From Paulownia fortunei (lineage: Eukaryota > Streptophyta > Magnoliopsida > Lamiales > Paulowniaceae), in the NCBI GenBank assembly GCA_019321725.1, contig CM033107.1, positions 12,267,445 to 12,331,444 of the forward strand: DNA of 64,000 nt, given 5' to 3'. The notes below the pieces were generated by a model. The model made no database searches and had not been told where the DNA came from. It saw only the letters and a list, made by a program, of their open reading frames with translations. A program made the translations under genes and the position numbers. Of this stretch, positions 25,860 through 55,759 are shown piece by piece. Each line of letters begins with the position of its first letter. The first letter of the stretch is position 1.

Positions 25860-28535
25860 TGTGATACCCGAGCATCTTACTACTCACATGGCCAAATATG
25901 ATTCATGCATTACATATTAATTGCGTGCTATTTTCATTGATATGACATCATATAATTTATTTTATTTTATACGGCATTCTTAATCATTAAACTTAATTTT
26001 GAAACTCTCGCACGGTATTGATTATCGAATCCCCTAACCTAAGTGGTTGATTTTGTATTGAAATAAGAAGAAATTTAGGTATCAATATAGTGAATAGTGG
26101 TAGGTTACACATGGTAACCTTAGGAGTTCGAAAGGTGTTACCAAAAAGTTTATAGAAAGTAAGTCGGTTCGATCATGAATTTTAATATTATATGTATATT
26201 TAAATCATACACTTGGGACAACTAGACATACAATACTATAATTTAAATGTTATATAACTAGGTTCATAGGTTTGTAACACCATCGGTGCACAAACATATC
26301 AATCGGGCAAGAATCGATAATTTTTCGGGTGAAGAACCTAATGAATAGACATAGAAATTAGCTACGGGAATGAATGGTGATGAAGATAGGTTGCAACCAA
26401 ATAAGAATATATGAGACACACAAGATTAGGGCTGCAAGATAAGGGAGAAAATCAGATATACCATTACATGCCACCTCATGCTTAGACTTATCAAGCTAGT
26501 ACCTTAACCTATTCTTCACTCTTAAGCTAACAACCACACCTTAAACCTTATTCTGAACTATTTCAGCTTCTAAATACATGGAAAAAGCTCTCTAAATAGG
26601 TGCTAAGTGATTTCAACCAAAAAATGAGGCAAAATAAGCAAATGGAAGGAGAAATAACTAAGTTCAAGTAGAAAACTGTGCAAGGTGAGCTTAACCTACG
26701 GGTTTGGCATGACGTTCAGATTTATTTTGAGGTTTATTGGCCTATTAAGATTTGAATATTATTTATAAATGTGTTAGGATGTTATTAGATAGGCTTTGAT
26801 GTATAAAGAAAGGGTTTGTGGTTGGAAATATTTGATAGAAAACATTTATGCTAGAAACTGTCACCTTGCTATTTTTTTGTGTTTTAGGCATCAAAAGTAT
26901 ATGGTATGTTGAATAAAACCTGTAATTATCATCATATACATGTTTATATATGGGTTAAGAGTATTGGAATAAATTTTCATCGATTAGAAATTGAAATTGG
27001 GCATGATATTAAAGAAAACACTCAAAGCTACCAAAGTAAGAATATATGTTCTGGTATGTTGTGAAAGGGGACTAAATTATAGGACCTAGACCCATGTGTT
27101 TTGGAAATTTTGTGGCATTTTTATATTTTTCTACATGTTATCTAAGTGTGGTAAGAATTTTAGAGTGAATAAATATTCCTAAGGATGTCAACATGTCTAT
27201 GAAACCTAATGTGGCAGCAAGGAAATTAGAGGTAAAAATTTGTCCTATTTAATAACTTAGTATGTTTTAGCCTAAACATGTTGCTATTGAGTTCTAACAA
27301 TTAGGTACATGCTATTAGAGTGATAATACTTCAATTACGTGATGTTTACATGTATTTAAGATGAGAAATTAAGATATTTGAGGGATTATATTGGGTTCTA
27401 GTTTATGAAAGTCTAATTGTTACCTAGATAGCTTGGTGTTTAAAGTCTTAGTATGAGATTTTGTGCTTTCAACTTACCAAATTGGGAATGGTGTTTGATG
27501 TTGGGTAATATTACAGGCGATTTTATATCTAAGATTGGAGAGAAATACTAAATAAATCTAGACTAAGCCACCAATCAAGTGAAAAATAAGTAAAGATTTA
27601 TTTGCAACTACAATGCATAGACATAGTAGATGTGTGAATTATATATAATATCATAAATCATATGTCATAGTAGAGGGCTCTTCATTGAGCATACATACAT
27701 GGGCATTGTCATTGGCACGTGCATGCATCATATACGAGCATTGTGATAAATCTTGCATTGCACGGCATGATTCTGAGAAAGGAAAATATTTTGCTGACAA
27801 CTACTAGTGCACCGAAGCATGCATGGATTTGTAAGTTCACGTGCATGGATTTGCATGCGTATGAGTATGCATGGATTTGCATGCTTATATGATGATTGAC
27901 CATTGGATTATGACGGTGTATAGAGCTCTTTTCCATTGCATGGGATAGTAACATTGGTTAGGGGCCCAAGAAAGAAATAATTTTGAAAGAAATATTTTGA
28001 TGCATAAAATTGTATTGTGGGCATAGCATTTTGAGATGCATGACTTGATATTGTGGATTATTCTTTGACATGCATAATCTTTACTTGCTGAGCGTTAGCT
28101 CATATAGTTTATGCATTGTAGGTGAGTACGACGATGCTTGAAGCATCTTTTACTAGTTGGGCGGCTGTTGGAGCTCCTGCAGGTGTCTAAGAGAATGTGT
28201 ATATGGATGACGACCTGTTGGGCTATTTTGTTGACTTGTTATATTTTAAGTCCGTTGTATTATATTTTTAGACTGGTACTATATTTTGTTTTTAAAACTT
28301 TACTATAAATAAGTGTGTAAATATTGTGGTCGTTGCGGTGTTGTGCTTTATATAAATACTAATCCTGCTATATACATGACATGTGTGAGAAAGTATTTTA
28401 AATAGGATTGTGCATATAAAAAGTGATTTATCTTTTCTTAAAGTGTTACAAAAAAAAATATTCCTTGCATGCACACAAATTCTATCTTGTCAAATTATAT
28501 TATATATATAGTTGTCTAGTAATGAGGGTGTTACA
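25860..28535 (+). mobile_element. Ty3/gypsy solo LTR of the G1 family, 2676 bp
   Basis: It begins TGTGATACCCGAGC and ends GAGGGTGTTACA, the same ends as the LTRs at 35119 and 52173. The flanks are exact: ACCTA at 25855-25859 and 28536-28540. No internal sequence is present, so recombination between the two LTRs removed it. By eye it is about 90% identical to the G1 5' LTR over its first 300 bp. A CATGCATGGATTTGCAT repeat occurs three times near 27815-27880. It sits inside a minus-strand copia LTR. Confidence 0.92.
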
Positions 28536-29883: not shown

Positions 29884-32505
29884 ATCTCCCACGTAATTTA
29901 GAGCCAGTTACCCATATATTTTGGGCTCATTTTCTCAAGGGGTTTTTCAAATACCCTTCACGCTAGGGGTTTAGTTAGTGGATCTACTATATTTTTAGCT
30001 GAGGTAACGCCTTCCACTTTGATGTTGCCTCTACCGATGATCTCTTGCATTAAATAGTATTGCCTCAAAATATGCTTAGATTATTGATGAGATCTTAACT
30101 CCTTTACTTGTGTAATTGCCATATTGCTATTATATTACACCGAGACTAGATCACCAACAGCTATGGCTACGCCAAACTGTTGGGCAAAGCTCTATATCTA
30201 AATAGCATATTTCGCAACATTACATGTTGCAATGTACTTAGGTAGTGCGAATCCACAGTTGTCTCCTACTTGGAACTCTTCAGCTGACCACCCTGCGATT
30301 TAGGGTAAATATGAATCTGTGTATTGAGTTTGAATTGTCTATATGAAACCAGAAGCTAAAAACAATAAAGTTAAAAGCTTTAATTCTCCCCAATCGTACA
30401 CCAAGAAGACATCCTTAGTCTTTTGTAAGTACTTAAGGATTGCCTTTATGGATTTCTGGTGTTGCTTGCCTAAATTTGACTGATATCTACTTGTGACATT
30501 CAAAGCATATAAGTAAATCAAATCTCTATATAGCATAGCATACATTATACTTCCTCTCACGGATGCATAAAGTATGTGAGTCTCTTTCCATCTTCTCCAG
30601 AGTCTTTGAGGACATAGACTTCAAAAAAGAGATACCTTGACTCATCAAGAGGTATCCCCTCTTAGATTCATCCATGTTAAACCTCATTAGCATCATATCT
30701 ATATATATAGATTGAGATAGTTCGATCATCCTCTTAGATCTATCTCTATGGATTTTAGTCTCCCAAATATAGGAATAATATAGGGTGTCATCAACATAAA
30801 GGATAATAAATTTCACTATGCTCTCAGTAACCTTCTTGTACACACAAGTATCATCTAGATTTTTGAGGAAACCAAATGATTTGATTACCTTGTCGAATTG
30901 GATGTTCTAATTTCAGGAAGCTTGTTTGAGTCCATAAATGAAACTCTAAAGCTTGCAAACCTTTTGCTCGCTTCCTTGGGATATAAAGCCCTTTGGCTGC
31001 TTTATGTAGATCACTTCATCAATATTTCCATTAAGGAATGATGTCTTCATATCCATTTACCATATCTTGTTGTCATAATACGCCCAACAAGATATGAGTA
31101 GATTTTAGCATCTCCACTAGCGGGAAGGTTTCCTCATAGTTAATACCTTGTCTATGAGTGTAACACTTTGCAATTAGTCATGCCTTATAGGTCGCTACCT
31201 CTCTATCTACTCCAAGCTTCCACTTATACACTCATTTGCAGCCAATTGACATTATACCTTGACCCTGTCCACCAAGGTTGGACCTTGTTGGAGTGCATAG
31301 AGTCCATTTCAGATTGTATGGCCTCTCGATCTTCCTGAGTTGATGTCAAACATTACTTCTCCATACTTCCTTGATCATTATCCAAAAAATGCTCCATTTT
31401 ATTGTTCTTTAACAAGAAGCCATAAGTTGCTTCGAGATCCTTTTGGATCTCCTCGGAGGTTGTGTTAGAAGTGTTAGTTGTGGGTCATTAAACACTACTG
31501 CCTCTTGTGAGACGTTTTGTAGCTCTTGAGTTTCTTTAATATCTACAACCTCGACTTTTTATTTAATAGAAACTCCTTCTCTTGAAAGGTGGCATTCTTC
31601 AAAACAAACTTCTTTTGCTCCATGGGGTCATAGAAGTAGTATCCAATGGATTCAATTGGATACCCCATAAACTCACATAAAATAGATCTCATATCCCAAC
31701 TTATCTTTGACTTGCTGCTTCACATAAACAAGGCACCTCATACCCTAGGTATTTTTGAGAAGGGATCTTGCCAACCACATCTCATATGGTGTTTTGGGCA
31801 CAACTTGGATGACACTCTAAATAATAAAAATGTCGTTGTTTGCAGAGCATAGACTCAGAATGAAAGAGAAAGTCCAATGAAATTCTTCATAGACCGAACC
31901 ATATCCAACAAATTTTAGTTCTTTCTCTTAGCTACCCCTATTGGGCTGTGGAGTAGAAGGCAGAGTCTACTGCACGAGAGTCCCATTCTCTTTTAGATAA
32001 TCAAGAAACTCCGAGCATAAGAAATCACCCCCTTGATTAGATTGAAGAACCTTGATACTTTACCTAGTTTTCTTCTCAACTTCATGTCTAAATTCTTTGA
32101 ACTTTTCAAAGGCTTAAGACTTGTATCATAAGATACACATCTATACCTTGAACGATTATCATTAAAGGTAATACAAAAATGGTAGTTTTCTTGGACACTA
32201 ACACTTAGTGGCCTGCATATATCCATATGAATCAAATCCAATAGATTTGCGACATGCTCCACTTGTTTAACAAATGGTGATTTGGCACTTTTTCTTAAAG
32301 TAAGATTTATATGTTGGCATTTTTTTGCTCGTTTGTGAGGCCAAGCAATTATTCTATCTTGTGAATTCTCTTCATGGAGATATAACCTAATCTAGCATGT
32401 CACAAGTATGTGCAACTATGATCATCTAAGAAATTATTTTTGACAATATCTAATACCAAGACAAATATTTAAAACTACCTTAAATCTATCCAAAGCTAAG
32501 AGGAC
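29884..32505 (-). pseudogene. Ty1/copia pol remnant: integrase, reverse transcriptase, RNase H
   Basis: The minus-strand order runs from 32505 down to 29884. Integrase N-region: MEHVANLLDLIHMDICRPLS (32262 on). Reverse transcriptase: RLIAKCYTHRQGINYEETFP near 31190-31130 and ILYVDD at about 30805-30788, the latter with both catalytic Asp intact. A C-terminal block IHRDRSKRMIELSQSIYIDM follows, then YALNVTSRYQSNLGKQHQKS and ILKYLQKTKDVFLVYDWGEL of RNase H. The final DPLTKPLA lies near 29940. Stops and frameshifts are frequent and gag and protease are gone. The PPT (minus GTGGGAGAT) abuts the LTR. Confidence 0.8.
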
Positions 32506-34518
32506 TGTAATGTCCAATTCTCTCCAACATAGCCAATAGTAAGCATATTGTGTGAATATGCATCTAATCAATATGTATTATCAAATTATGGCATACAAAT
32601 AACATGATAGCATGAACATATATAATTGTTACTATATGCTCCAGTAATGCTTTAACATGCATTAATACATGAAATATGAGATCAAACTTTTATTTCTTGA
32701 TTTAACATATTTCTTAAGTGCCTTTTTGCAGTGAAAAGCTCGGTATCTCAGTTAAGAAAGATTAATGTGTTGAATGGCCATGAAATGAATTATTCTTATT
32801 GCTTCATACTTGTTACATTATAAAGTGATTATTTGCCTAAATATTTGCTTTAAATATGTTACATTTGGCTAAAAACTAAAAGTATACAAAATGGTGCAAT
32901 TTGATTGGTTGACTAGATTGCATGAAATCATTCTAAACCACATTACATTTGATTATAACACCAAAGAATCAATTTTTTGTCATCTCCCTAGCCCATAAAC
33001 GTGGATTTTAGCATGAGAAGATACCAAGCATGATGCAACCAATCATCACTCTCCACTTACCTCTCTTTAAAATGTCAAAGAAGTAATTTTAGCCATATTT
33101 TCTTGTGGAAGCTCCTAAAAAATGACCAGCCCTTCTTCTCCAAGTTTATCCCAAATTTCTACACTCTCATACTCATAATAATTGAATTCAATCCATAGGA
33201 ATCCATTAAACACAAACTAGAACAAGTTTCTACCCTTTTTAAGCTCGAAAACCATTAATTTTGGAGTTTAATTCCAATCAAATCAAGGTATATTCTTTTT
33301 CAATGTTTCTTATGATGAATTTATGGTATCTTGGATGGTTACATATTTTAGTATCTTTTTGTATGATTGAAAACTTAAGTGGATTACACTTGAAGTCAAA
33401 ACTAAACTAGTTAAGTTAGTTTCTAGAAAAATTGATAGCCTTATGAAATATGCCTAATTTATTTGTTTTTATTTATCTTGTAATGCTTATATTGTAAGTG
33501 CAAGTGCCTATGAATGATTGTGAACAATAGCAATTAGATTGCTTAATTGAAGGTTACAATCAATTTAAGTTACAATCGAGTTTATGTCGTGTTAATTTAG
33601 ATTGTGTGCATGTTTAAGGGGCTACCCTAATAATTATGTTTGAATTATTAGTTATTTAATGGATACCCTAATGTTTAATGTCGTGAATTAGTAGTAAATA
33701 TGGAGTATGCATTGTTTTTGAGGTTATGTAATTAATATGAAATTGTTTACAAAAGATTGAAAAGTGTATGTGATTTTAATTAGAATAGATAATGTGTTTT
33801 ATTAAAAGAATATTGAAAGGTTCACGATTTGATTATGGTAGGCCTTTAACACATCCTATCTTCTAAAGAGATTGACGTTTTCACTTAGCACAAAGTGGAC
33901 TTGAGGTAAGTTGAAACTTTCATTTGCTGTATTACAAGAATCATATAATGTTGTGCATGTTTTAATGTAATTGTCATTATTTGTCAAATGATGTAATGTT
34001 TGATGCATTTATGGTTCATGAAATATGATACTAATAAGAATATAATGTGGTTTTTGAAAAAAAAGTATGGTACTTGATAATAATAGTCAGGTAGACAAGG
34101 GACCGGCAGACCTAATAAATGGTAGCAAATACTTGAGGTTGAAAAATCGATATAGGAAAGCCATATTGAATGAAACAGAATACGGCTAATACCTGAGGTT
34201 GAAAGACCAAGTATGGAAAACCTATATTATTTCTCTTATTGGCCAATTATTATGAACATGTTCTAAAAATCTATCGCTATTAGTTAGGTACCACACTTCA
34301 ATAGCTCTAAAGAATGATTTATGAATGAAAGTTATTAAATTAAATAATGCATTTAATAATTTATGAGATGTACATGTAGGCTATTTGTTATTGCATTCGT
34401 TTCACCTTACTGAGTTTTTAGTTCATTAGATTTATGTGATGCAGTAAAAATATACAGGTTTAGAGATTGACTAAGTCTCTAGAGTGATCGGATAGAGATT
34501 TGTTCATATGCCATGTTT
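32506..34518 (+). mobile_element. D-family LTR, copy A (right end truncated)
   Basis: It starts TGTAATGTCCAATTCTC and parallels the complete copy at 55760-58057 (shared ATATGCATCTAATCAAT, GAATGGCCATGAAATGAATT, TCTCTAGAG-type blocks). It ends near CATATGCCATGTTTAT at 34518, just before an (AT)n run; about 270 bp present in the complete copy are missing. The 5-bp left flank is AGGAC; the right flank cannot be tested. Similarity to G1 end sequences suggests a Ty3/gypsy LTR, but no matching internal region is in the window. Confidence 0.75.
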
Positions 34519-35118
34519 ATATATATATATATATATATTTGTCAAATATAGCACTTTGAGAAAGAGTAAAATATTTTTCCACATATAACCCTATATATAG
34601 AAAAATCACCCTTATATAAACACAACACCCATCATAGTCATGCTATTCTCAGGTTGATTTACTATCAAATTTCAAGAGTTATATAAGATACGATATCCTA
34701 AAGTTATAATATGATAGACTCAAAAAATAAAAATAATAGCTATACTTTCGGAAGAAGTAAGGACATTTTGCATCTTATAGCCCTTTATATATAGTTAGTA
34801 ATTTACACAATTATAATGAATGTAAAAATTAGAATATGCCCACAATACAACCCAGCAGGTTGTCATCTATATACATTGATCCTCCAAAGCCTGTAGGAGC
34901 TCCAACAACCATTTCAGTAAGCCACAGAGTCTTAGGTATCGCTATGCTTACCTACAATACATGAACTACATGAGCCAACGGCTAGTAAGCAAAAATTATG
35001 CATGCTGAAGAGATAATCTAATATATATGCGATGCATCTCTATGAAATAATGCCAGGAATGAAAGCTCCTAAACCAAATCAGTTCATTCAAAATTATTTT
35101 CCATCACTGGGCCCTTGG
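34519..35118 (-). mobile_element. G3 gypsy LTR, fragment 1
   Basis: From about 34800 the sequence matches the minus-strand gypsy LTRs at 39240-39480 and 46190-46440 (TGTAGGAGCTCC, CACCTACAATACATGAACTA, CACTGGGCCC). It stops at CTTGG 35118 where G1 is inserted and continues at 54932. The first 280 bp, starting with an (AT)n run, are not clearly assigned. Confidence 0.7.
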
Positions 35119-37995
35119 TGTGATACCTGAACCTCTTACTACTCACATGGCCACATATGATTCATGCATTATATGTTAATTATGTGCTATTTGCATTGGT
35201 ATGACATCCTATAATTCATTTTATTTTATATGGCATTGTTAAACATTAAACTTAATTTTAAAGCTCTCGCATGATATTGATTATCGAATCCCCTAATCTA
35301 AGTGGTTGATTTTGTATTGAGATAAGAAGAAATTTAGGTATCAATATAGTGAATAGTGCTAGGTTACACGTGGTAACCTTAGGAGTTTGAAAGGTGTCAT
35401 CGAAAAGTTTATAGAAAGGGAGTCGGTTCGATCATGAATTTTAATATTATATGTATGTTTAAATCATACACTTGGAACAACTAGACATACAATACTATAA
35501 TTTAAATGTTATATAACTAGGTTCATAGGCTTATAACACTTTTGGTGTACAAACTTATGAATCGGGCAAGAACCGATGATTTTTCGGGTGAAGAACCTAA
35601 TGAACGGACATAGGACTAACTACGGGAATGAATGGTGATGAAGATAGGTTGCAACCAAATAATAATATATGAGACACAAGATTAGGGATGCAAGATAAGA
35701 GAGAAAATCAGATTATACCATTACATGCCACCTCATGTTGAGACTTATCAAGCTAGCACCTCAACCTATTCTTCACTCTTAAGCTAACAGCCATGACTTA
35801 AACCTTCTTCTGAACCATTTCAGCTTCTAAATACATGGAAAACGCTATCTAAATAGGTCCTAAGTGATTCCAACCGAAAAAGGAGGCAAAACAAGCAAAG
35901 GGAAGGAGAAATAACCAAGTTCAAGTAGAAAACTGTGCAATGTGAGCTTAACCTACGGGTTTGGCATGAATTTTAGATTTATTTTGAAGTTTATTGGCTT
36001 ATTAAGCTTTTAATATTATTTATAAATGTGTTAGGATGTTATTAGATAGGCTTTGATACATAAAGAAAGGGTTTGTGGTTGGAAATATTTGATAAAAAAA
36101 CATTTGTGCTAGAAACTGTCACCTTATTGTATTCTTGTATTCTAGACTTCAAAAGTGTATGGTATGTTGAATTAAACCTATAATTATCATCATATACATG
36201 TTTATATATGATTTAAGAGTATTGGAATAAATTTTGATAGGTTAGAAATTGAAATAGAGAATGATATTAGAGAAACACTCAAATTGCCAAAGTAGTAAAA
36301 TCTGTTTTGGTGTACTGTGAAGGAGACTGAATTAGGGGAGCTAAATCCATTAGTTTTGGCAAGAATATAACCTGGTGGTCTCTGTGTATATGTTATATAA
36401 TTGTGGTAAAAATTTTGGAGATATTGAATATACGTAAGGGTGCCAAAACCATTAATGTCATGAAGTGTGCAAAACTATCACAGTAGGAAAATAATCTGTT
36501 TCAGTATGTTGTGAAGGGAGCTGAACTTGGGAAGTTATATCCATGATTTTTATCAATTCTATGATATAATTACACTTATATAGATGTTATCTAAGTGTGG
36601 TAAAAATTTAGGAGTGATTGGATATGTTTAGGGATGTCAAAATTATCATGCAACTAAATTGGACAACAAGTAAATATAAAAATGTGAATCTGTCCCATTT
36701 GATAACTTAGCATATTTCAACCTAGATATGTTCCTATTGAGTGTTAACAATTAGGTACATGATATTAGAGTTATAATAATTCAATTATATGATGTTTACA
36801 TGTATCTAAAATGAGAAATTAAGGTATTGGAGAGACTAGGTTGTGTTCTAGTTTGTAAAACCTAGATAGCTCGGTGTTTAAGGTCTTAATATGATATTTT
36901 ATGCTTTCAAATTGTCAAATTGGGAATGGTGCTTAATGTTGGTAATATTACACGCTATTTTACATTTAAGATTAGAGGGGAACAATAAATAAATCTAGGC
37001 TAAGACACCAACCAAGTGAAAGGTAAGTAAAGATTCATTTGCAACTACAATGCATAGACATAGTAGATGTGTGAATTGTATGTAATATCATAAATCATAT
37101 GTGCATAGTAGAGGGCTCTCCATTGAGCATACATACATGGGCATTGTTATTGGCACGTGCATGCATCATATACATGCATTATGGTAAATCTTGCATTGCA
37201 CGACATGATTGTGAGAAAGGAAAATATTTTGCTGACCACTACTAGTGCACCAAAGCATGCATGGATTTGCATGGTTTTATGCATGGATTTGCAGGTTCGC
37301 ATGCATGGATTTGCATGCGTATGAGTATGCATGGATTTGCATGCTTATGTGATTATTGGCCATTGGATTATAGTGGTGTACAGAGCTCTTTTTTGGTGCA
37401 TGGGATAGCAGCGTTGGTCATGGGCCCAAGAAAGAAATGATTTTGAGAGAAATATTTTGATGCATAAAATTGTATTGTGGGCATAGCTTGTTGAGATGCA
37501 TGACTTGATATTGTGGATTATTCTTTGACATGCATAATCATTACTTGTAGAGTGTTAGCTCATATAGTTTATGCATTGTTGGTGAGTACAATGACGCTTG
37601 AAGCATCTTTGACTGGTTGGGTGGTGGTTGGAGCTCCTACAAGTATCTGAAAGAGTGTGTACATGGATGACGACTTGTTAGACTATTTTGTTGGCTTGTT
37701 ATATTTTGAGACTATTGTATTATATTTTTAAACTGGTACTATATTTTGCTTTTAAAACTTTACTGTAAATAAGTATGTAAATATTGGGTCATTGTGGGTT
37801 TCGTGCTTTTATATAAATATTGATCTTGCTATATACATGATGTGTGAGAAAGTATTTTAAATATGGTTGTGCATGTAAGAAGTGATTTATCTTTTGTTAA
37901 AGTGTTACAAAAAAAAAAAATTCCATGCATGCATACATGTTCTATCATATCAAATTATAATATATATATAGTTGTGTAGTAATGGGGGTGTTACA
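35119..37995 (+). repeat. G1 5' LTR, 2877 bp
   Basis: It ends GGGGGTGTTACA and is followed after GAG by the primer-binding site. It is longer than the 3' LTR (2754 bp) mainly because the latter lacks about 115 bp around a short minisatellite. Sampled stretches differ from the 3' LTR by roughly one base in ten, so the insertion is not recent. Confidence 0.92.
37255..37345. repeat. Minisatellite in G1 LTR (CATGCATGGATTTGCAT)
   Basis: Four copies of the 17-bp core occur at about 37257, 37279, 37300 and 37326, with 5-9-bp linkers. The solo LTR has three copies near 27815-27880, and the 3' LTR has lost the whole block (compare 54295-54310). The core contains CATGCATG, the RY motif of plant seed-gene promoters; any regulatory role is speculation. 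Confidence 0.8.
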
Positions 37996-38941: not shown

Positions 38942-38964
38942 GATAGTGTAACACCCCCAATACT

Positions 38965-39005
<41 letters not shown>

Positions 39006-39490
39006 ATAATTTTGACATGATAAATCCTGTGTGCATGTATAATTTTTTTTTTCTGTAACAGCATAATAAATAATAAACTATTTTTCTCACTCACAAACTA
39101 ATATATATATATATATACCTGTAGAGAACCAACGACAATCATAATATTTACATATCCATGTATATAAAAGTTTTAAAAGTAACACACAGTACAAATCCCA
39201 AAACCTAATATAATAAACTCCAAAATCAAATAAGTTAACAACCAGTCCGACAGGTCGTCATCCATGTACACTCATCCTCAGAACCTGTAGGAACTCCAGC
39301 CGCTCGCTCAGTAAGTCCATGGCTTCAAGTATCATTAAACTCACCTACAATGCATGAACTACGTGAGCTAATGCTCAGTAAATGAAAATCATGCATGCTG
39401 AAGGGGATAATCCAACATAAATGCAATACATTTCTATGAGATTATGACAAGAATGCGAACTTATGCATCAAAATCATTTTATTTAAAAAT

Positions 39491-39931
39491 GATTAAAAAT
39501 GACCAACCTTTCCACACACATAACACCTTTTAGGATCTGTAGGGCAGTTTCCCACATGTTGACCACCACATCTAGGGCATATAGATTGTGGCATTGGCGC
39601 TTTCCCCTACTCTATCTTTCGTTTCTTATTTTGCTCCCACTATTGCTGCTTTGGTTTCGATCGAAATTCGGGTTTCTGGCCTTGAGCTTGGAATGCTCTC
39701 TTCTTTTCACTTCCAACCCACCTCTGTCCTTGTCCTTGCTGAAATTGACGACGAGCTTCCAGCGCACGAACAATTCTAAGTTCAGCTTGCTCAGCAACTA
39801 ATGCTCTCTCAGCAATCTGTGAATATGTGACTCCTTGAATTCCCGCCATATCAACATCTCTATATAGTTCTGGCCTCAAACCTTCAAGGAATCTTTCTAC
39901 TTTCAGTGCATCAGTGCTAATCATCAGTGCA
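39491..39931 (-). pseudogene. Gag segment embedded in G2 3' LTR
   Basis: The minus-strand frame 39924-39640 reads MISTDALKVERFLEGLRPEL, then YSQIAERALVAEQAELRIVR, and reaches the zinc-knuckle lead CPRCGGQHVGNCPTDP in an adjacent frame. The plus-strand DNA matches 44800-45190 of the G2 interior at about 97% by eye, in the same orientation. It also contains codons (LKVERFLEG start) that the G2 interior has lost by deletion near 45193, so it did not come from this copy. The left junction lies near AAAAATGA, the right junction at CAGTGC/AAAAGTATAAC. Confidence 0.88.
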
Positions 39932-40487
39932 AAAGTATAACGTATTAATTTTCATTCTTAATCAATGGGTTTCTATATCAAATCTCATAAGGGGTCTTAA
40001 ATCTTAAATTTAATTAAATAACAATCAAGTCTTAAAATTTATACTCACACCAATTAGAACCTTTTAAATACCTTAATTTCTCATCTCGAATTTATTTTAA
40101 TATTATCTAATTGATGTGTTATAACCCCCGTAACAAATTCCTCAATTAAATTAGCTCTTTCATCCAATTAATACAAGATAATAAAATTAAATCTTTGTAA
40201 CTAATTTCGTATTAAAAGTGCATATTAATTATTGTCTCACAAGAAGATAACTAGTTAATTTGAATCAAAACTTTCTTTCAAATTAAAAATAAACGACATA
40301 AATATATATTTTTATCCGTACAAAAATAATAAGGGACTTACCTAAAATTTTCTCAAATTTCTGCGGTAGAAGTTTGTTCGCGCTATTTCTTCTTCTGCTC
40401 TTTTTTTTTCTTTTCTTCTCTTTTCCTTTCCTTTTCTGTAGTCGTGTGTTTGTGTGGTGTGTTTTAAAATAGCTTTGTTAAGAAAAC

Positions 40488-40700
40488 ATAATGTAATATA
40501 TATATATACTTATCCTTAACATTAGTATTAAACAAGTTTAATATAATATGTTATATATATACTTAGCCTTAATATTAGTATTAAAGTAATCTAATACAAT
40601 ATATTATATATATATGCTTATCCTTATCATATATGCATGTAATATAATATACACTACATATATATGCTTATCCTAATCATGTGTATAAGTATACACTACA
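40488..40700. repeat. AT-rich tandem repeats of about 62 bp in G2 LTR
   Basis: Three to four copies of a unit with TATATATACTTATCCTTAA, TTAGTATTAAA and TAATATAATAT follow each other. The same array lies at about 47640-47830 in the other LTR with small length differences. A (TTA)n run follows at about 40914-40950. Confidence 0.7.
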
Positions 40701-41271
40701 CGTGTAATCATATATATATATATTATATTATACACCATATACTTATATATATTATATTTATATTTATATTATATATATTATATATATTTTTTTTATCAAT
40801 ACAAAATATTATTTATTTATTTATATATATATATTAATTTATAAGCCCCTAAATTTATTTTATATTAAAAATTACACCCTCTTAATTAACATGGTAATAT
40901 CCTTATTTTCTTTTATTATTATTATTATATTATTATTATTATTACTATTACTATTATCATTTTCTCTCTAATTAATTTATTTGTATAGTTTATCCTACAC
41001 CGATAAACACAACGATGCCACCTTTCACTTACGTGTATCATAATATTATTTGATAGTTGACACCTAAATTCTAATTTTAGTACTAACTCAACCAATTAGG
41101 TTAAAGAATCTAGAAACTAATATCGGTGATAACTTTAAAAGTTTAATTATTAAAATACCGTATAAAATATAATGCATTATGAAATATCAATTAAAATGTA
41201 ATGACACATACGTGGCATAAAATGCATGAACTATATTGGCCAGGTGAGTAGTGTGAGGCTCGGGTATTACA

Positions 41272-44225
41272 TCCTTCCCTCCTTATGAAAATTTCATCCT
41301 CGAAATTTTGCTTACTGAAAAAGCTCTGGGTATTTGGCTCTCATTTCATCTTCACTTTCCCATGTAGCCTCTTCCATTGATTGGTCTCTCCACAGTACGT
41401 TGACTAATGGGATTTTCTTATTTCTAAGTTGCTTTATCTCCCGTAGTAGAATCTCGATAGGTCTTTTCTCATAACTCAAATCTGATCTCAACTCTATTGG
41501 TTCGTTTCATAGAATGTGGGATGGATTCGCAACATACTTCCTCAACATGGATACGTGGAATACATTGTGTACTTGAGACATTGATGTAGGCAAATCAAGT
41601 TTGTAAGCAACATCACCTAATCTCTCGGTAATAGGAAATGGACCAACATATCTGGGACTCAAACTTTTCTTTCTTCCCAAATCGCATAATACCTTTCATT
41701 GGTGCTACCTTGAGAAACACTTGATCTCCTATGACAAACTCTAGCATCCTCCTTCTTTGGTTTGCATAACTTTTTTGTTGACTCTGGCCAGTTTCCATTA
41801 TTTTTCGGATTTGCAACACAGCCTCTGTCATTTCCCAAATCATGTCCGGCCCTAAAAGTTTCTTTTCACCTACTTCATCCCAGTGAACTAGAGATCTGCA
41901 TTTCCTATTATACAGTGCTTCATAAGGAGCCATCCCAATTGTAGCTTGATAACTATTGTTATATGAGAATTCTACCAGAGGTAGATACTTGCTCCACTGT
42001 CCTTAGAAATCCAATACGCAAGCTCTAAGCATATCTTCTAAAGTTTGTATTGTTTGTTCAGATTGCCCATCAGTTTGAGGATAATATGCAGTACTAAAAG
42101 ATAGATGCGTTCCCAATGCCCTCTGTAGACTTCTCCAGAAGGTAGACAGAAATCTCGAGTCCCTGTCAGAAGCAATGGATAGTGGTACACCATGGAGTCT
42201 AACCACTTCCTGTATATATATATGTGTATATCGATCTATGGAATAGGTTGAACAAATGGGAAGAAAATGAGCTGATTTAGTTAATCTGTCCACAATCACC
42301 CAAATAGAATTATGACCTTTCACTGTTTTGGGTAAACCTGCCACAAAGTCCATAGTGATTCTTTCCCATTTCTATTTTGGAATAAGCAGAGGTTGCAAAG
42401 TTCCCGCTGGTCTTTGATGTTATGCTTTTATCTGCTGACATGTTAAACATTGGTCCACGTACTGTGCAATATCTCTTTTCATACCTGGCTACCAATAATG
42501 CATTTTCAAGTCTATATACATTTGGGTAGCTCCTGGATGTATTGAATAAGGTGTTGAATGTGCCTCTGTAAAATATCTTTTCTGATGTTATCCACAATGG
42601 GCACATATAATTGTTCCTAAATTGTAGCACTCCATTCACAGATATTTTGAAATCAGACGGTACCCTGAAGCAATATCCTTCTTTACCTTGATAAAATATT
42701 CGTCCCCCTATTATCCCTGTTGAATTTTATCAATTAACGTCGGTTGGAGTGTCAAGGCTACCAACTTTATTTCTATTTCTCCCAATTGTATAATCTCCAC
42801 ATTTATTTTCTGGAATTCAATTAACTCTGGTCTCTGAACAGAAAGAGTAGCTGCGGTACCTTGTATTGATTTTCTGCTCAGTGCATCTGCCACCACATTA
42901 GCCTTACCCGGATGGTAGTTGATAACACAGTCATAATCCTTTACCAGCTCCAACCACCTTCATTGTCGCATATTCAGTTCTTTTTGTGTGAAGAAGTATT
43001 TTAAGCTCTTGTGATCTGTATAGATTTCACATCGTTCCCTATATAGATAGTGCCTCCATATCTTCAATGCAAATACCACTGCAGCAAGCTCCAAATCATG
43101 TGTAGGGTAATTTCTTTCATATTCTTTCAGCTGCCTCGATGCATATGCAATCACTTTTCCATTTTACATCAGTACACATCCCAAGCTATTCTTCGAGGCA
43201 TCACTGTAAACTACAAAGCCTCCCGTACCTGATGGAATTGAAAGGATAGGTACTGATGTCAACCTCTTCTTCAATTATTGGAAATTTTGCTCACATATCT
43301 CTGTCCATTTAAATGTTATACCCTTTCGTGTTAACTGTGTTAAAGGGGAAGTAATCTTGGAAAATCCTTCTACAAATCTACGGTAGTATCCTGCCAAACC
43401 AAGAAAGCTACGTACTTCTGAAAAATTTGTAGGTTGTGACCAGCTATTAATAGCTTCTACTTTACTTGGATCTATTGATATTCCTGCCCCTGATATGACA
43501 TGTCCAAGAATACCACTATGTCCAACCAAAATTCACATTTTTTGAATTTAGCATATAATTGTTTCACCTTTAAAACCTTTAACACCATTTTCAAATGTGT
43601 CACGTGCTCTTCTTTTTTTGGAGTAAATCAGGATGTCATCGATAAACACAATAACAATTTATCTAGAAAATCTTTGAATACCCGATTCATCATTTCCATG
43701 AAAGCTGCTGGGGCATTAGTTAATCCAAATGGCATCACCAGAAACTTATAATGTCCATACCTCGTACGAAATGCTATCTTCGAAATGTCATCTTCATTTA
43801 TTTTCAATTGATGATACCTAGATCGTAAATTAATTTTTGAAAATACTACTGCACCCTGGAGCTGATCGAATAAATCGTCAATTCGAGGTAAAGGGTATTT
43901 ATTCTTGATTGTAACCTTATTTAATTCTCAATAGTCTATGCATAGTCTTATCGTACCATCCTTCTTTCGTACAAACAGGACAGGCGCACCCCACGGTGAA
44001 AAGCTAGGTGTGATAAAACCTTTTTCTTGTAATTCTTGTAATTGTATCTTCAATTCTTTAACTCAGATGGAGCCATTCGATATAGGGATTTTGAGATTGG
44101 AGATGTTCCCGGCTGCAGTTCAATAACAAACTCTATCTCACGATCGAGTGGTAACCCAGGAAGATCATCTGGAAATACTTCAGGGTATTCCTGAACCACT
44201 GGTACTTACTAAGTGTAGGATGGTG
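41272..44225 (-). pseudogene. G2 pol: reverse transcriptase, RNase H, integrase, chromodomain
   Basis: Reading down from 44225: RT motif [15 protein letters not shown] near 43652-43608; RNase H-side block [20 protein letters not shown] and [20 protein letters not shown] (43529-43330). RNase [21 protein letters not shown] (43148 on) and [20 protein letters not shown]. Integrase: [20 protein letters not shown] (42353 on), [20 protein letters not shown]-like [11 protein letters not shown]; then MAPYEALYNRKCRS (41933). C-terminal PTSMSQVHNVFHVSML and the chromodomain IPLVNVLWRDQSMEEATWES near 41440-41350 end before the LTR. Numerous stops and frame changes. Confidence 0.88.
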
Positions 44226-44251
44226 TTGTTATTCAATGCTCATAACACTGA

Positions 44252-44896
44252 CTAAATACCCTCACAACCCGCTTCTAATAAATGTTGTGCTTTCAGCGCT
44301 GATATTAGTGGAATCTGAAGTTCTTCATAATCCCAACAAACATAAAAGGTTCTCTCTCCAGGAGGTTGGAATGTCACTGTCTTTTTCTGGCAATCTATGG
44401 TAGCACAGTACTTTGATAACCAGTCCATGCCCAAAATTATGTCATAGTCATTCATGGCCAATACAATCAGATCAACATATAGTTCTCTATCTTCAATAGG
44501 AATGGCACAAGCTTTCAAAATCTGATTGGTCTGCTTTGAGTCTCTAGAAGGAATCGTCACATTGTAACTAATTTCTATTATGTCAGGTGTCTTACCTAAC
44601 CTCTTCACATACTCAGTGGATGCAAATAAATGTGTAGCTCCTGAATTAAATAGTATGAATGCTGGAGTATCATGGATGAAGAGTTTACCTATCACTACTG
44701 ATGGATTCACCTCTGCGTCTGCTCTAGTGATGGTAAAAACTCTAGCAGGTACATTTTGTTGCTTTATAGAGTTTAGATTCTTCAAGCATGTTCTAGCAAT
44801 ATGACCAACTTTTCCACACACATAACACCTTCTAGGATCTGTAGGGCAATTTCCCACATGTTGACCACCGCATCTAGGGCATATAGATTGTGGCAT
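44252..44896 (-). pseudogene. G2 Gag zinc knuckle and aspartic protease, 214-codon frame
   Basis: This is the longest open frame in the window. It starts MPQSICPRCGGQHVGNCPTD, has a CCHC zinc knuckle CYVCGKVGHIARTC (residues about 24-37) and the chromovirus protease region: ARVFTITRADAEVNPSVVIG, then LFNSGATHLFAS (about residues 82-93). The family has LFDSGAT; here the catalytic Asp is Asn (GAT to AAT, codon 44647-44645). DLIVLAMNDYDIILGMDWLS follows, a conserved protease/linker block. The frame is open but the enzyme should be inactive. It is a fragment of Gag-Pol, not a separate gene. Confidence 0.88.
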
Positions 44897-45740
44897 TGGC
44901 GCTTTCCCCTGCTATATCTTTGATTTCTTATTTTGCTCCCACTGTTGCTGCTTTGGTTTCAATTAAAATTCAGGTTTCTGGCCTTGAGCTTGGAATGGTC
45001 TCTTCTTTTCACTTCAACCCACCTCTGTCCTTGTCCTTGCTGAAATTGACGACGAGCTTCCAGCGCATGAACAATTCTAAGTTCAGCTTGCTCAGCAACT
45101 AATGCTCTCTCAGCAATCTGTGAATATGTGACTCCTTGAATTCCGCCATATTAACATCTCTATATAGTTCTGGCCTCAAACCTTCAAGGAATGTAGTCCC
45201 CAACTGTCATAGCTCCCTGCCGTAGCTGTATAAATTCATTCATCTTATTGCACGAATAGGCGCTGTGAAGTATTTGTTTCTGAATAACTCTTTAAATCTT
45301 TCCCAAGTCATAGTAAAGGGATCCTCTATGCTCCTCATTGTATCCCACCAGTACCCAGCACTTCCACAAAGCATAAACGAGGCGCATATCACCTTCTCTT
45401 CCTTTGGGACTCTGCTATACTGGAATATATTTTCTAGGGTTCTCAGCCAATCCTCTGCAACTGTGGGATCTATCGCATCTTCAAATATTGGTGGATTGAG
45501 TTTTCTGAATCTTTCTCTAACTATCTCCACTGGTTCTGCTCAGGGCTGTGGTTGATTCATTTTAGATCTCTGTTGTCCACCCACATCCCTCTGCTAGATG
45601 AGTTGTTGAATTTGTTCTGATTGTCGTTGAATAAGTTCTGTAAGTCGGTTTATAACAGTGTCCCGTTCGTCATTTGACATAGGTGTCTTTTCTTCTTAGT
45701 TTCTACCTCCATTACTACTTTCACTCCATGTTCTTGTCAT
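44897..45740 (-). pseudogene. G2 gag, N-terminal part
   Basis: The 96-codon frame 45530-45240 reads MEIVRERFRKLNPPIFEDAI, DPTVAEDWLRTLENIFQYSR and FTMTWERFKELFRNKYFTAP, matching G1 gag. The start region near 45738 is MTRTWSESSNGG-like. A deletion of about 70 bp at 45193 removes the FATHMVSTEALKVERF equivalent, and frames change at several points. Confidence 0.8.
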
Positions 45741-45874
45741 GGCTGCAATATTGTTTTAAAACATGACCAATATAATTCATGAAACAATGATGCATAATAA
45801 TAAAACTTATGAGCAAGGCGGTGCTTCCACAAGTTCCAAGTTTATGTACATGGACAGTCTACAGAACCTATAAA

Positions 45875-45890
45875 CGCGCTCTGATACCAC
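45875..45890 (-). promoter_or_regulatory. G2 primer-binding site (initiator Met tRNA)
   Basis: The minus strand reads TGGTATCAGAGCGCG starting two bases inside the 5' LTR, the same class as in G1. It fixes the orientation of G2. Confidence 0.93.
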
Positions 45891-45892
45891 TC

Positions 45893-48397
45893 TGTAACAC
45901 CCCCAATACTACACACACACACACATATATATATATAGATATAATAATTTTGACATGATAAATCCTGTGTGCATATATAAATTTTTTTTTCCTGTAACAG
46001 TATAATATATAATAAACTATTTTTCTCACTCACAAACTAATATATATATATACCTGCAGAGAACCAACGACAATCATAATATTTACATATCTATGTATAG
46101 AAAAGTTTTAAAAGTAACACACAGTACAAATCCCAAAACCTAATATAATAAACTCCAAAATCAAATAAGTTAACAACTAGTCCGATAGGTCGTCATCCAT
46201 GTACACTGGTCCTCAGAACCTGTAGGAACTCCAGCCGCTAGCTCAGTAAGTCCATGCTTCAAGTATCATCAAACTCACCTACAATGCATGAACTACGTGA
46301 GCTAATGCTCAGTAAATGAAAATCATGCTTGCTGAAGGGGATAATCCAACATAAATGCAATACATTTCTATGAGATTATGACAAGAATGCGAACTTATGC
46401 ATCAAAATCATTTTATTTAAAAATCATTTTCCATCACTGGGCCCTTGGCCACCTACTATGTACCGGATAGAGCTCTTGACAATATCAATAATTACATGGC
46501 CATAAACAGATAGACATAATCCGGGGATCATCTCCTGGGATCACCAAAGGTCCACCCTATGTCTTCCCCTGTGACCCTCCAGAAGTATTCCCACTGGCAG
46601 CGTCAATAAGGGCACATTCAAGTGGTCTACCCTCTCGTGACCATCAAAGGCACACCCCTGTCAACCTCTATGATCCTCCGAAAAGTAATACTCGCAGCGC
46701 CCCAAATATCATATAAATAAGCCACACATGGGTCTCGGTACACTAGTAGTGGCCAACCAAAATATTTTATTTCTAAAAATAATGTTATGCATGCAAAACC
46801 TCAACTGTGAGCACGTATTATGCATGCACGTGTAAATGTTGATGAATGGCATGTTAAAAAACACAGTGAATCACATGTCCTGTTATCCAAACAACGTATG
46901 TACTATAAGATATTTATAATATTCATCAAGATACAATGATCACATTTAATATAAATAAGTCAAGAAATACTATGCCCATGTATTATAGTTGCAAATGGAT
47001 TTTCACTTACCTTCCACCTTTGATATCCTATTGAAGGTTAACAAGATTCTCCTCCTAACCTTACATATAAGGTTGCCTGTAAAAGTATAACGTATTAATT
47101 TTCATTCTTAATCAATGGGTTTCTATATCAAATCTCATAAGGGGTCTTAAATCTTAAATTTAATTAAATAACAATCAAGCCTTAAAATTTATACTCACAC
47201 CAATTAGAACCTTTTAAATACCTTAATTTCTCATCTCGAATTTATTTTAATATTATCTAATTGATGTGTTATAACCCCCGTAACAAATTTCTCAATTAAA
47301 TTAGCTCTTTCATCCAATTAATACAAGATAATAAAATTAAATCTTGTAACTAATTTCGAATTAAAAGTGCATATTAATTATTGTCTCACAAGAAAATAAC
47401 TAGTTAATTTGAATCAAAACTTTCTTTCAAATTAAAAATAAACGACATAAATATATATTTTTATCCGTACAAAAATAATAAGGGACTTACCTAAAATTTT
47501 CTCAAATTTCTATGGTAAAAGTTTGTTCGCGCTATTTCTTCTTTCGCCCCTTTTTTTCTTTTCTTCTCTTTTCCTTTCTTTTCTGTAGCCGTGTGTTTGT
47601 GTGGTGTGTTTTCAAATAGCTTTGTTAAGAAAACATAATGTAATATATTATATATATACTTATCCTTAACATTAGTATTAAACAAGTTTAATATATATGT
47701 TATATATATACTTAACCTTAATATTAGTATTAAAGTAATCTAATACAATATATTAATATATATGCTTATCTTTATCATATATGCATGTAATATAATATAC
47801 ACTACTTATATATGCTTATCCTAATCATGTATATATGTATACACTATACGTGTAATCATATATATATATATATTATATTATACACCATATACTTATATAT
47901 ATTATATTTATATTTATATTTATATATATATATTTTATAATCAATACAAAATATTATTTATTTATTTATATATATATTAATTTATAAGCCCCTAAATTTA
48001 TTTTATATTAAAAATTACACCCTCTTAATTAATATGATAATATCATTATTTTTTTTATTATTATTATTATTACTATTACTATTATTATTTTCTCCCTAAT
48101 TAATTTATTTTCATAGTTTATCCTACACCAATAAACACAACGATGCCACCTTTCACTTACGTGTATCATAATATTATCTGATAGTTGACACCTAAATTCT
48201 AATTTTAGTACTAACTCAACCAATTAGGTAAAGAATCTAGAAACTAATATCGGTGATACTTTAAAAGTTTAATTATTAAAATACCGTATAAAATATAATG
48301 TATTATGAAATATCAATTAAAATGCAATGACACATACGTGGCATAAAATGCATGAACTATATTGGCCAGGTGAGTAGTGTGAGGCTCGGGTATTATA
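45893..48397 (-). repeat. G2 5' LTR, 2505 bp
   Basis: This is the intact-format LTR. Minus-strand ends are TATAATACCCG... and ...GGGGGTGTTACA. It retains the 46432-47076 segment that the 3' LTR has lost, including the block shared with G1/G3 LTRs (CATCACTGGGCCCTTGG, CCTACTATG). A (CA)n(TA)n microsatellite lies at about 45910-45936. Confidence 0.92.
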
Positions 48398-49232
48398 GAT
48401 AGAGATGGACTGTGGGGAAAAAAGGCCAATCTAAATGCAGAAGCCGATCCAAATACAGAAGCCGGGATTTAAATTTCAAGGAGAATAAGGCCAACAACAA
48501 GAAGGTCAAAGTAAGAGGCCATGGGTCGAACAAGAAAAAACACCGATGTTAGAAACTGTATGTAAAAAATATGGTAATCGACATACTCGAGGCTGCTATG
48601 TAGATACCAGAATGTGCTTTCGATGTGGAATGCCGGGACATATTGCTAAATTTTGCCCAGGTAAACAAAATCAGACCGCCCAAAAGAATGTACTAGCTAA
48701 AGTGTTCACCATGACAAGGGCGGATGCAGAGGCAAATCCATCGGTGGTGATAGGTAAACTTTATATTTCTAGTGTTCCAACACTTGTGTTATTTGATTTT
48801 GGAGCCACACATTCATTTGCATCCATTGAGTATGTGAAGAGGCTGGGTAGAATACCAGATGTAGCAGAAATCAGTTATAGCGTAACAGTCCCCTCTGGAG
48901 ATGTAAGACAAATCGATAGGATTTTGAGAGCTTGTGCTATACTTGTTGAAGGTAGAGAATTACATGTTGATTTGATTGTACTAGATATGAATGATTACAA
49001 TGTTATTTTGGGCATGGATTGATTGTCAAAGTATGGGGCTACTATCAACTGTAAGGAAAAGACAGTGACATTTCAACTTTCTAGGAAAGAGTCTTTCACA
49101 TTTACCAGCATTGTGAAGAATTTTAGATTCCCTATGATTTCAGCAGTGAAGGCACAACGATTACTTGATGATGGTTGCGAAGGGTACTTGGTGAGTGTCA
49201 TGAACATTGAGGAACAACACCACCAACTCTGA
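48398..49232 (+). pseudogene. G1 gag C-terminus and aspartic protease
   Basis: This resumes G1 after the G2 insertion. The zinc knuckle CFRCGMPGHIAKFC is at about 48616-48657. The protease region follows: AKVFTMTRADAEANPSVVIG, then LFDFGATHSFAS (about 48789-48824), where the family has LFDSGAT: the Asp is kept but Ser became Phe (TCT to TTT). DLIVLDMNDYNVILGMD ends at a TGA (49021) replacing the Trp codon of the conserved GMDWLS. After the stop the frame continues (SKYGATINCKEKTVTFQL). Confidence 0.88.
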
Positions 49233-52172: not shown

Positions 52173-54926
52173 TGTGATACCTGAACCTCTTACTACTCAC
52201 ATGGCCATATATGATTCATGTATTACATGTCAATTACGTGCTATTTGCATTGGTATGACATCATATAATTCATTTTATTTTATACGACATTGTTAACCAT
52301 TAAACTTAACTTTGAAACTCTCGTACGGTATTGATTATTGAATTTCCTAACCTAAGTGGTTGATTTTGTATTGAGATAAGAAGATTTAGGTATTAATATA
52401 GTGAATAGTGCTAGGTTACATGTGGTAACCTTAGGAGTTCGAAAGGTGTCACCGAAAAGTTGATAGAAAGGGAGTGGTTCGATCATGAATTTTAATATTA
52501 TATGTATATTTAAATTATACACTTGGGACAACTAGACATACAATACTATAATTTAAATGTTATATAGCTAAGTTCATAGGCTTATAACACTTTCGGTGCA
52601 CAAACTTATCAATCAGGCAAGAACCAATGATTTTTTGGGTGAAGAACCTAATGAACGGACATAGGAACTAGCTACGAGAATGAATGGTGATGAAGATAGG
52701 TTGTAACCAAATAAGAATATGTTAGACACACAAGATTAGGGCTGTAAGATAAGGGAAAAAATCAGATATAACCATTACATGCCACCTTATGCTTAGACTT
52801 ATCAAGCTAGCACCTTAACCTATTCTTCACTCTTAAGGTAACAGCCATGACTTGAAATTTCTTCTGAACCATTTTAGCTTCTAAATACATGAAAAAACCC
52901 TCTAAATAGGTCCTAAGTGATTCCAACCAAAAAAAGAGGCAAAACAAGCAAAGGGAAGGAGAAATAACCAAGTTCAAGTAGAAAACTATGCAAGGTGAGC
53001 TTAACCTACGGGTTTGGCATGACTTTCAAACTTATTTTGAGGTTTATTAGCTTATTAAGCTTTGAATATTATTTATAATTTTTTAGGATGTCATTAGATA
53101 GGCTTTGATGCATAAAAAAAGGGTTTGTGGTTGAAAATATTTGATAGAAAACACTTGTGGTAGAAACTGTCACCTTGCTGTATTCTTGTATTTAGGCTTT
53201 AAAAGTATATGGTATGTTGAATAAAACATGTAATTATCATCATATGCATGTTTATATATGATTTAAGAGTATTGGAATAAATTTGATCGGTTAGAAATTG
53301 AAATAGAGAATGATATTGGAGAAACACTTAAACTGCCAAAGTAGCAAAATCTATTTTGGTGTGCTGTAAAGGAGACTGAATTAGGGGAGCTAAATCCATT
53401 AGTTTTGGAAAGAATATAACCTGGTGGTTTCTGTGTATATGTTATATAAGTGTGGTAAAAGTTGGGAGATATTGAATATACATAAGGGTGACAAAACCAT
53501 TAATGTCATGAAGTGTGCAAAACTGTCACGGTAGGAAAATAATCTGCTTCTGTATGTTGTGAAGGGAGCTGAACTTGGGAAGATATATCCATTAGTTTTA
53601 TCAATTATATGATATGTTTACATTTATATACATATTATCTAAGTGTGGTAGAAATTTGGGAGTGATTGGATATGTTTAGGGATGTCTAAATTATCATGCA
53701 ACTAAATTGGACAACAAGTAAATATGAAAATGTGAATCTGTCCCATTTGATAACATAGAATATTTCAACCTAGACATGTTGCTATTGAGTGTTAACAATT
53801 AGATACATGATATTAGAATTATATATACTTCAATTATATGATGTTTACATGTATCTAAAATGAGAAATTAAGGTATTGGAGGGAGTAGATTGGGTTCTAG
53901 TTTGTAAAACAAATAGCTTGGTGTTTAAGGTCTTAGTATGATATTTTATGCTTTCAACTTGCCAAATTGGGAATGGTTTTGATGTTGGTAATATTATAGG
54001 TTATTTTATATCTAAGATTGGAGGGAAATAATAAACAAATCTAGACTAAGCCACCAACTAAGTGAAAGGTAAGTAAAGATTCATTTGCAACTACTATGTA
54101 TAGACATAGTAGATGTGTGAATTGTATGTAATATCATAAATCATATGTGCATAGTAGAGACTTTCCATTGAGCATACATACATGGGCATTGTTATTGGCA
54201 CATGCATGCATCATATACACGCATTGTGGTAAATCTTGCATTGCACGACATGATTGTGAGAAAGGAAAATATTTTGCTGACCACTACTAGTGCACCAAAG
54301 TATGTGTACAGAGCTCTTTTTCGGTGCATGGGATAGTAGCGTTGGTCATGGGCCCAAGAAAGAAATAATTTTGAAAGAAATATTTTGATGCATAAAATTG
54401 TATTGTGGGGCATAGCATGTTGAAATGCATGACTTGATATTGTGGATTATTCTTTGACATGCATAATCATTACTTGCTGAACGTTAGCTCATATAGTTTA
54501 TGCATTGTAGGTGAGTACGACGACGCTTGATGCATCTTTTACTGGTTGGGTGCGGTTGAAGCTCCTGCAGGTGTCTGAGAGAGTGTGCACATGGATGATG
54601 ACTTGTTAGGCTATTTTGTTGGCTTGTTATATTTTGAGTTTGTTGTATTATATTTTTAGATTGGTACTATATTTTTTGCTTTTAAAACTTTACTGTAAAT
54701 AAGTATGTAAATATTAGGTCGTTGTGGGTGTCGTGCTTTTATATAAATACTGATCTTGCTATATACATGACATATGAGAAAGTATTTTAAATAGGGTTAT
54801 GTATATAAGAAGTGATTTATCTTTTCTTAAAGTGTTACAAAAAAAAAAATATCACATGCATGCACATAGGTTCTATCATATCAAATTATACTATATATAC
54901 AGTTGTGTAGTAATGGGGGTATTACA
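52173..54926 (+). repeat. G1 3' LTR, 2754 bp
   Basis: It starts TGTGATACCTGAACC and ends GGGGGTATTACA. It pairs with 35119-37995 across its length and lacks the minisatellite block between TGCACCAAAG and TGTACAGAGCTC (near 54300). It is followed by the CTTGG duplication. Confidence 0.92.
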
Positions 54927-54931
54927 CTTGG

Positions 54932-55759
54932 CCTACCTACTATGCACTGAATAGAGCTTTGAATAATATGAATAATCACATGGCCATAAATAAATTGATT
55001 CGGTCTAGGGGCATCTCCTGGGATCACCAAAGGTCCACCCCCGTCTTTTCCTGCGATCCTTCCAAAGTCTTCCCATCGATAGAGCTAATAAGGGCATAGT
55101 CAAGTGGTCCACCCTCTCGTGACCATCGGATCCACACCCTATGTCAACCCCTATGATCCTCTAAGAAGTAACACTCGTGGTGCCCTAAAATATCACATAA
55201 GCACACCTCGCATGCCTCGGTACACTAGTAGTGGTAAACTAAAATATTTTCTTTCTGAAAATCATGTCTCAAATCATATTGTGCATGTAAAAACCTCAAC
55301 TATACTCATATGTCATGCATACACATGTAAATGTTCATGAATGGTATGTTTAATATGAAATGCAAGTCATCTTGCTCTCAACATGTTTCAAGAATCATAA
55401 AACTCTTAAGTTACATACTATACTTGTCATCCAATCAATTTAAATGTCATCAACATATTAGGTATAAATTGTTCAAGACATACTATATTCATGCATTGTA
55501 GTTCCAAATGGATTTTCACTTACCTTTGATCGGTTGTGTGTTTCTTCTAGTTTCTTAAGTATTACTTCCCAACCCTAGATGTGAAACAATCTATAAAAAT
55601 ACAAGATATCAATCGCCATTCTCAATTAACAAGTTCATTATACCTAATGTAGTATAAAGATCTTGAATCTCAATTTAACTAAACAACCTTACCATTTAGA
55701 AACTATAACCGAATACAACTTTCTATGCACCTTTGTTCCCCATCTTAAATGTATACTAA
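54932..55759 (-). mobile_element. G3 gypsy LTR, fragment 2
   Basis: This continues fragment 1 across the G1 insertion: CACTGGGCCCTTGG joins to CCTACCTACTATGCAC, exactly as the uninterrupted LTR reads at about 46434-46461. It shares ATCTCCTGGGATCACCAAAG and other blocks with G2 LTR 46520-47040. It stops at ACTAA 55759, where a D solo LTR is inserted. Confidence 0.85.

Follow-up and report, generated by a model that had tools for sequence, protein, structure and literature searches.

LTR retrotransposons are dated on the assumption that their two LTRs were identical at insertion. Why, then, does one LTR of a Gypsy element on contig CM033107.1 of Paulownia fortunei hold a piece of gag where its partner holds LTR sequence? 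The element, here called G2, was analysed within a window of 64,000 nucleotides, the whole stretch of DNA under study, and all coordinates count from its first letter. The patch is real in this sequence; it has the look of a scar left by a single rearrangement, not of a new kind of element. Among the published matches covered, which were part of those returned and were considered at the level of titles and abstract openings, no LTR with an inserted gag patch was found.

A single Gypsy insertion in a nest of repeats

G2 is one insertion on the minus strand, at 38947-48395, flanked by an exact 5-bp target-site duplication (TSD), GATAG, at 38942-38946 and 48396-48400. Because this TSD stands at both ends, the two LTRs derive from one insertion, as the preliminary description had held; a fusion of two elements was ruled out by the same intact TSD. 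The 3' LTR, which bears the gag patch, occupies 38947-41269 and on the plus strand starts with TGTAAC and ends with TTACA. The 5' LTR (45893-48395) has kept the ancestral structure. Between them, the interior (41270-45892) holds gag, zinc knuckle, protease, reverse transcriptase and integrase in frames broken by stops and frameshifts; LTRs and interior alike read on the minus strand. Both inner LTR edges carry the motifs expected of them, TGGTATCAGAGC directly downstream of the 5' LTR and AGGAGGGAAGGA before the 3' LTR, which we take to be the primer-binding site (PBS) and the polypurine tract. Matches to PF08284 (protease) and PF00078 (reverse transcriptase) exceed the curated Pfam cut-offs; those to PF03732 (gag), PF00098 (zinc knuckle) and PF00665 (integrase) reach E <0.001 and lie under the curated cut-offs, and the open reading frame at 41613-42002 matched no Pfam family. 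By its paired LTRs with TSD, its domains, and its PBS and polypurine tract, G2 is an LTR retrotransposon of the Ty3/Gypsy type. It may belong to the Tekay/Del chromovirus lineage, a name that we give it from its general layout; as to a chromodomain, the Pfam matches gave only SH3_Tf2-1, in the neighbouring element G1. At the outer end of the 5' LTR (48394-48395) the expected TG has mutated to TA, so that the element orientation reads TATAATACCC. The interior contains further deletions, one of them with an apparent 3-bp microhomology, a point in favour of the break repair discussed below.

Comparison of the window with itself placed G2 inside the gag of G1. This element reads on the plus strand, has its LTRs at 35119-37995 and 52173-54926 and is flanked by the TSD CTTGG. 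It is itself inserted in an LTR of a G2 relative that we term G0 (34857-35118 and 54927-55526), and the nest of three levels extends over 34857-55526. The G1 TSD CTTGG maps to 46444-46448 in the G2 LTR, which is only some 20 bp away from where junction A, described below, is located. The LTRs of G1 are also asymmetric: about 117 bp of its 5' LTR (37259-37376) are missing from the 3' LTR at 54304, and most of this stretch is present in another repeat, L1 (25860-28535). Positions 27023-27191 of L1 align at two neighbouring places in the 5' LTR of G1 (36278-36638), a pattern that either a tandem duplication of about 190 bp in the G1 LTR or the loss of one copy from L1 would produce. Three more related repeats, 82-86% alike, lie at 32504-34518, 55776-57794 and 61311-63027, each with AGGTAAGT once per strand.

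The gag patch and its junctions

What exactly was exchanged? The two G2 LTRs align up to 39490 in the 3' LTR and 46424 in the 5' LTR, and again from 39931 and 47081. Between these points a 440-bp block of the 3' LTR (39491-39930) stands where the 5' LTR has 656 bp (46425-47080, minus strand). The preliminary description had proposed just this, LTRs that match on both sides of a swapped block, and had set its limits (39491-39931 and 46432-47076) correctly to within 7 bases. The 656-bp segment is homologous to the G0 LTR at 54927-55526, and since G0 retains it at 72.6% identity, the unpatched state of the partner is the older one.

Most of the block is a 424-bp piece of gag (39501-39924, minus strand) in sense orientation to the element, which stops inside the zinc knuckle before the last cysteine and contains two TAG stops and no frameshift that we could see. 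In element orientation, 39496-39892 matches the interior gag at 44798-45192 with 95.2% identity over 397 columns (E 8.6e-179), in agreement with the earlier reading of the block as gag and zinc-knuckle sequence in that orientation. At E 0.001 the translated piece by itself (39640-39951, minus strand) had no match in Pfam, and it is therefore the alignments that identify it as gag. The homologous interior gag (44803-45192, minus strand) has suffered two 1-bp deletions, carries stops of its own and lacks about 70 bp at 45192/45193. The gag homology of the patch runs on to about 39924, into this lost stretch: the final 32 bp of the piece lie within it and match the gag of G1 and of the relatives P0001-P0003. 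Identity between the patch and the neighbouring G1 gag is 78.6% over 173 bp. The piece therefore does contain codons that the interior has lost, as had been claimed; the conclusion drawn from this, that the donor was another copy, does not follow, since both the 1-bp losses and the deletion of about 70 bp can postdate the split of piece and interior.

Both junctions carry fillers that repeat sequence close by. On the plus strand, junction A passes from LTR TTTAAAAAT through GATTAAAAAT (39491-39500) into gag GACCAACC, with AT common to LTR and gag; together with its surroundings this filler forms a 10-bp tandem repeat, TTAAAAATGA twice. Under the alternative parse given by the aligner, GATT is LTR with one substitution and the filler is AAAAAT, 6 bp. 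Junction B passes from gag TAATCAT through CAGTGC (39925-39930) into LTR AAAAGTATAAC, and CAGTGC copies sequence 13 bp away (CATCAGTGC twice). Judged by gag relatives, of which there are 11, all from short contigs, gag homology ends at the ATG adjoining this filler. Nine of the 11 cover the site, the other two starting at the adjacent Met and being uninformative for the junction B peptide. All nine have His before Met, six of them as Thr-His, where the piece has GCACTG, encoding Ala-Leu; the second copy of CATCAGTGC is therefore read as filler. In simulations that all used the parse picked after the sequence was seen, the chance of the junction B match was 0.0005 when a 3-nt primer was required and 0.048 when the 6-mer by itself was allowed at any place within 30 bp; for 8/10 bases at junction A it was 0.011. 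The fillers allow both directions of synthesis to be drawn by hand. The block thus has the signature of templated filling, a deletion with insertions templated from the flanks: 656 bp were lost, and the fillers measure 6 bp at junction B and 6-10 bp at junction A, according to the parse.

The age of the patch

When did the piece part from its source? The LTR pair differs by 48 substitutions in 1837 aligned columns, gaps excluded (49 in 1841 with slightly shifted edges), and the piece differs from the interior gag at 16 of 388 sites. A raw comparison (16/388 against 49/1841, Fisher P 0.13) ignores base composition and was superseded by a corrected one; the G2 LTRs are AT-rich, and the changes are mostly transitions. 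When LTR rates were applied to gag as transitions per G/C site and transversions per site, 15.5 differences were expected against the 16 observed. The gag piece and the interior therefore split at about the time that the two LTRs did, or a copy of that age was involved. Another copy as donor, the conclusion of the preliminary description, is possible and is not required by a count that equals the one expected at insertion age.

A recent copy from the element's own gag was rejected. With 75% of the age remaining, the probability of at least 16 differences would be 0.13 (0.006 uncorrected for composition), and with 50% remaining it falls to 0.006 (0.00009 uncorrected), so that P is 0.006 or less if at most half of the age remains; the corrected values treat the LTR rate as exactly known. 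Because later copying is disfavoured, repair that used the element's own gag would have to fall early, unless the donor was another copy. Polarisation by hand against G1 and protein relatives gave about 5-6 substitutions private to the piece and 5-8 private to the interior, with two undecided, and neither is therefore much younger than the other. Timing alone leaves the mechanism undecided, because a donor copy from the same burst gives equal numbers.

The LTR sequence next to the junctions was also compared with the rest, for a conversion tract there, a zone of low divergence, might be left by repair from the partner LTR. Within 100 columns on each side, 2 LTR substitutions were seen against 5.2 expected (hypergeometric P 0.09; 19% of positions are as quiet). 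The figures are 2 against 7.8 within 150 columns (P 0.0095; 9% of LTR positions as quiet), 4 against 10.5 within 200 (P 0.012; 17%), 9 against 13.1 within 250 (P 0.12) and 10 against 15.7 within 300 (P 0.049).

Origin and meaning of the patch

How was the patch made? We lean, with a confidence just short of even, towards a double-strand break in the LTR that was repaired by copying in gag as filler. With G2 already integrated, a break would have arisen in the 3' LTR and its ends would have been trimmed, removing about 650 bp. A free end would then have primed, through 2-3 bases of microhomology, on gag of the same family, either the element's own early in the life of G2 or that of a copy of similar age; 424 bp would have been copied, slippage re-copying a few bases at each border, and the copied end would have been joined to the other LTR end. 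The synthesis was presumably that of Pol theta-like end joining or synthesis-dependent strand annealing, and the order of the steps is likewise presumed. Such repair explains the deletion, the missing homology and the repeated fillers in a single event. Arabidopsis Pol theta end joining is described as leaving a deletion with insertions templated from the flanks (PMC10923293), rice transposon-excision scars are described as holding foreign fillers of 1-123 bp (PMC4423477), and filler repair of breaks in plants is also described in PMC8871565. G2 shares with these scars the recipient deletion, the foreign insert, the microhomology and the short templated repeats at the joins; it differs in a filler that is of the same transposon family, in sense orientation and, at 424 bp, far longer than those described from rice. 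Counts from Triticeae point the same way: about 7 Mb of sequence, holding 400 LTR-retrotransposon insertions, yielded 2 template-switching complexes as opposed to 220 "other recombination events" (PMC1950507). Three features count against break repair because reverse transcription predicts them: the sense orientation, the shared family and the site in the 3' LTR. The divergence between piece and interior, which matches the insertion age, also counts against it, as does the long filler, and the quiet zone at the junctions is unconvincing, since 9-19% of LTR positions are equally quiet.

Could the reverse transcription of G2 itself have made the patch? Minus-strand synthesis would have left LTR RNA for gag RNA, in the same transcript or in a co-packaged one, and then returned; the intact 5' LTR would have come from the plus-strand strong-stop DNA of a second, normal genome. 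We regard this as a serious contender of somewhat lower probability, in a ranking that was judged rather than computed and is nearly a tie, with repair slightly ahead. Orientation, family, 3' position and equal age fit it directly; a sense piece of insertion age is what template switching predicts, and some break-repair scenarios yield both properties too. In HIV-1, 26 of 88 proviruses are described with asymmetric LTRs, 24 of the 26 having an intact 5' LTR and a 3' LTR that has lost a part, for which intermolecular plus-strand transfer has been proposed (PMC9278108). G2 resembles them in its intact 5' and altered 3' LTR within one provirus, but the HIV-1 cases described there are deletions, not inserted patches, whereas in G2 gag has replaced the lost stretch. 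Plant elements do recombine between templates (PMC5668417; PMC1950507). The Triticeae complexes, like G2, combine a flanking TSD with a chimeric structure, there put down to template switching; they have three LTRs, two interiors and R-region homology, in contrast to the non-homologous joins within one LTR of G2 (PMC1950507). The recombinant Onsen LTRs of Arabidopsis, described as mosaics of different family members, offer a further likeness, but they arose from LTR-to-LTR recombination, for the most part attributed to the first switch of template, in R, whereas the G2 exchange is LTR-to-gag (PMC5668417). The reverse-transcription route would also require, on top of two non-homologous jumps, either an intermolecular strand transfer or a heteroduplex that survived, and templated fillers at joins are the mark described for Pol theta (PMC10923293).

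The other explanations are improbable. An assembly or cloning artefact is conceivable in a region of nested repeats, where the patch is known from assembled sequence, but one would expect family copies to be misjoined in shared sequence; both joins here are non-homologous with fillers, and the flanks are 97.4% identical to the partner LTR, gaps excluded. Slightly less probable still is a chimeric LTR lineage already present in the genome, from which the G2 3' LTR received the patch by homologous conversion. Homologous LTR flanks would allow this, and a prediction puts potential converted regions in 25% of the LTR pairs of plants (PMC7251063). Yet the strings of junctions A and B have one match each in the window, with up to 3 mismatches allowed, and the junction B peptide occurs in none of the nine gag relatives spanning the site; junction A was also absent from viral contigs, a non-plant collection that says little about a plant-type element. 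A chimeric LTR that propagates has no support within the window, which shows a single copy. Least probable of all is ordinary homologous gene conversion between gag and LTR after insertion, for which we see nothing in favour beyond its having been suggested in the preliminary description: comparison of the LTR and gag regions yielded nothing but words of 8-9 bp with E above 1, no homology beyond chance, and on this ground such conversion was rejected.

Would the patch matter to the element? The replaced segment corresponds to positions about 1316-1971 of the 2503-bp LTR, past an AT-rich tract at about 47600-48000, and the removed segment holds a block that is conserved among the LTRs of G2, G0 and G1 and includes AAGGTAAGT, a sequence similar to a 5' splice site. 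From this layout the patch lies probably downstream of the promoter, in the transcribed part. In daughter elements both LTRs take their U3 from the 3' LTR, and only this U3 is copied into them; whether the patch could be inherited therefore depends on its position in the LTR. The proposal that gag becomes part of a promoter region is accordingly doubtful. With its frames broken, G2 would need help in trans for remobilisation.

A block of about 40 bp, AAGGTAAGTRAARATYCATTTGSAACTA, is conserved among LTRs of otherwise diverged elements (46965-47015, 37016-37065, 54062-54111, 27574-27650 and 55470-55540). Within it stands GGTAAGT, similar to a 5' splice site; the copy at 27574-27650 is mutated in this motif. 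A second AGGTAAGT is found in the G2 LTRs at 47485 and 40336. TTGCAG right before the G2 gag ATG could serve as acceptor, and the two motifs together suggest a leader intron that begins inside the LTR.

The patch is ordinary in kind and clean in its anatomy. As a repair scar, it would be a well-preserved case of broken repeats patched from relatives. If it was made in reverse transcription, an LTR structural difference of insertion age would be a direct exception to the dating assumption; G2 would then be a plant counterpart of the HIV-1 asymmetric LTRs, with gag inserted, and plant LTR pairs would not always be identical at birth.
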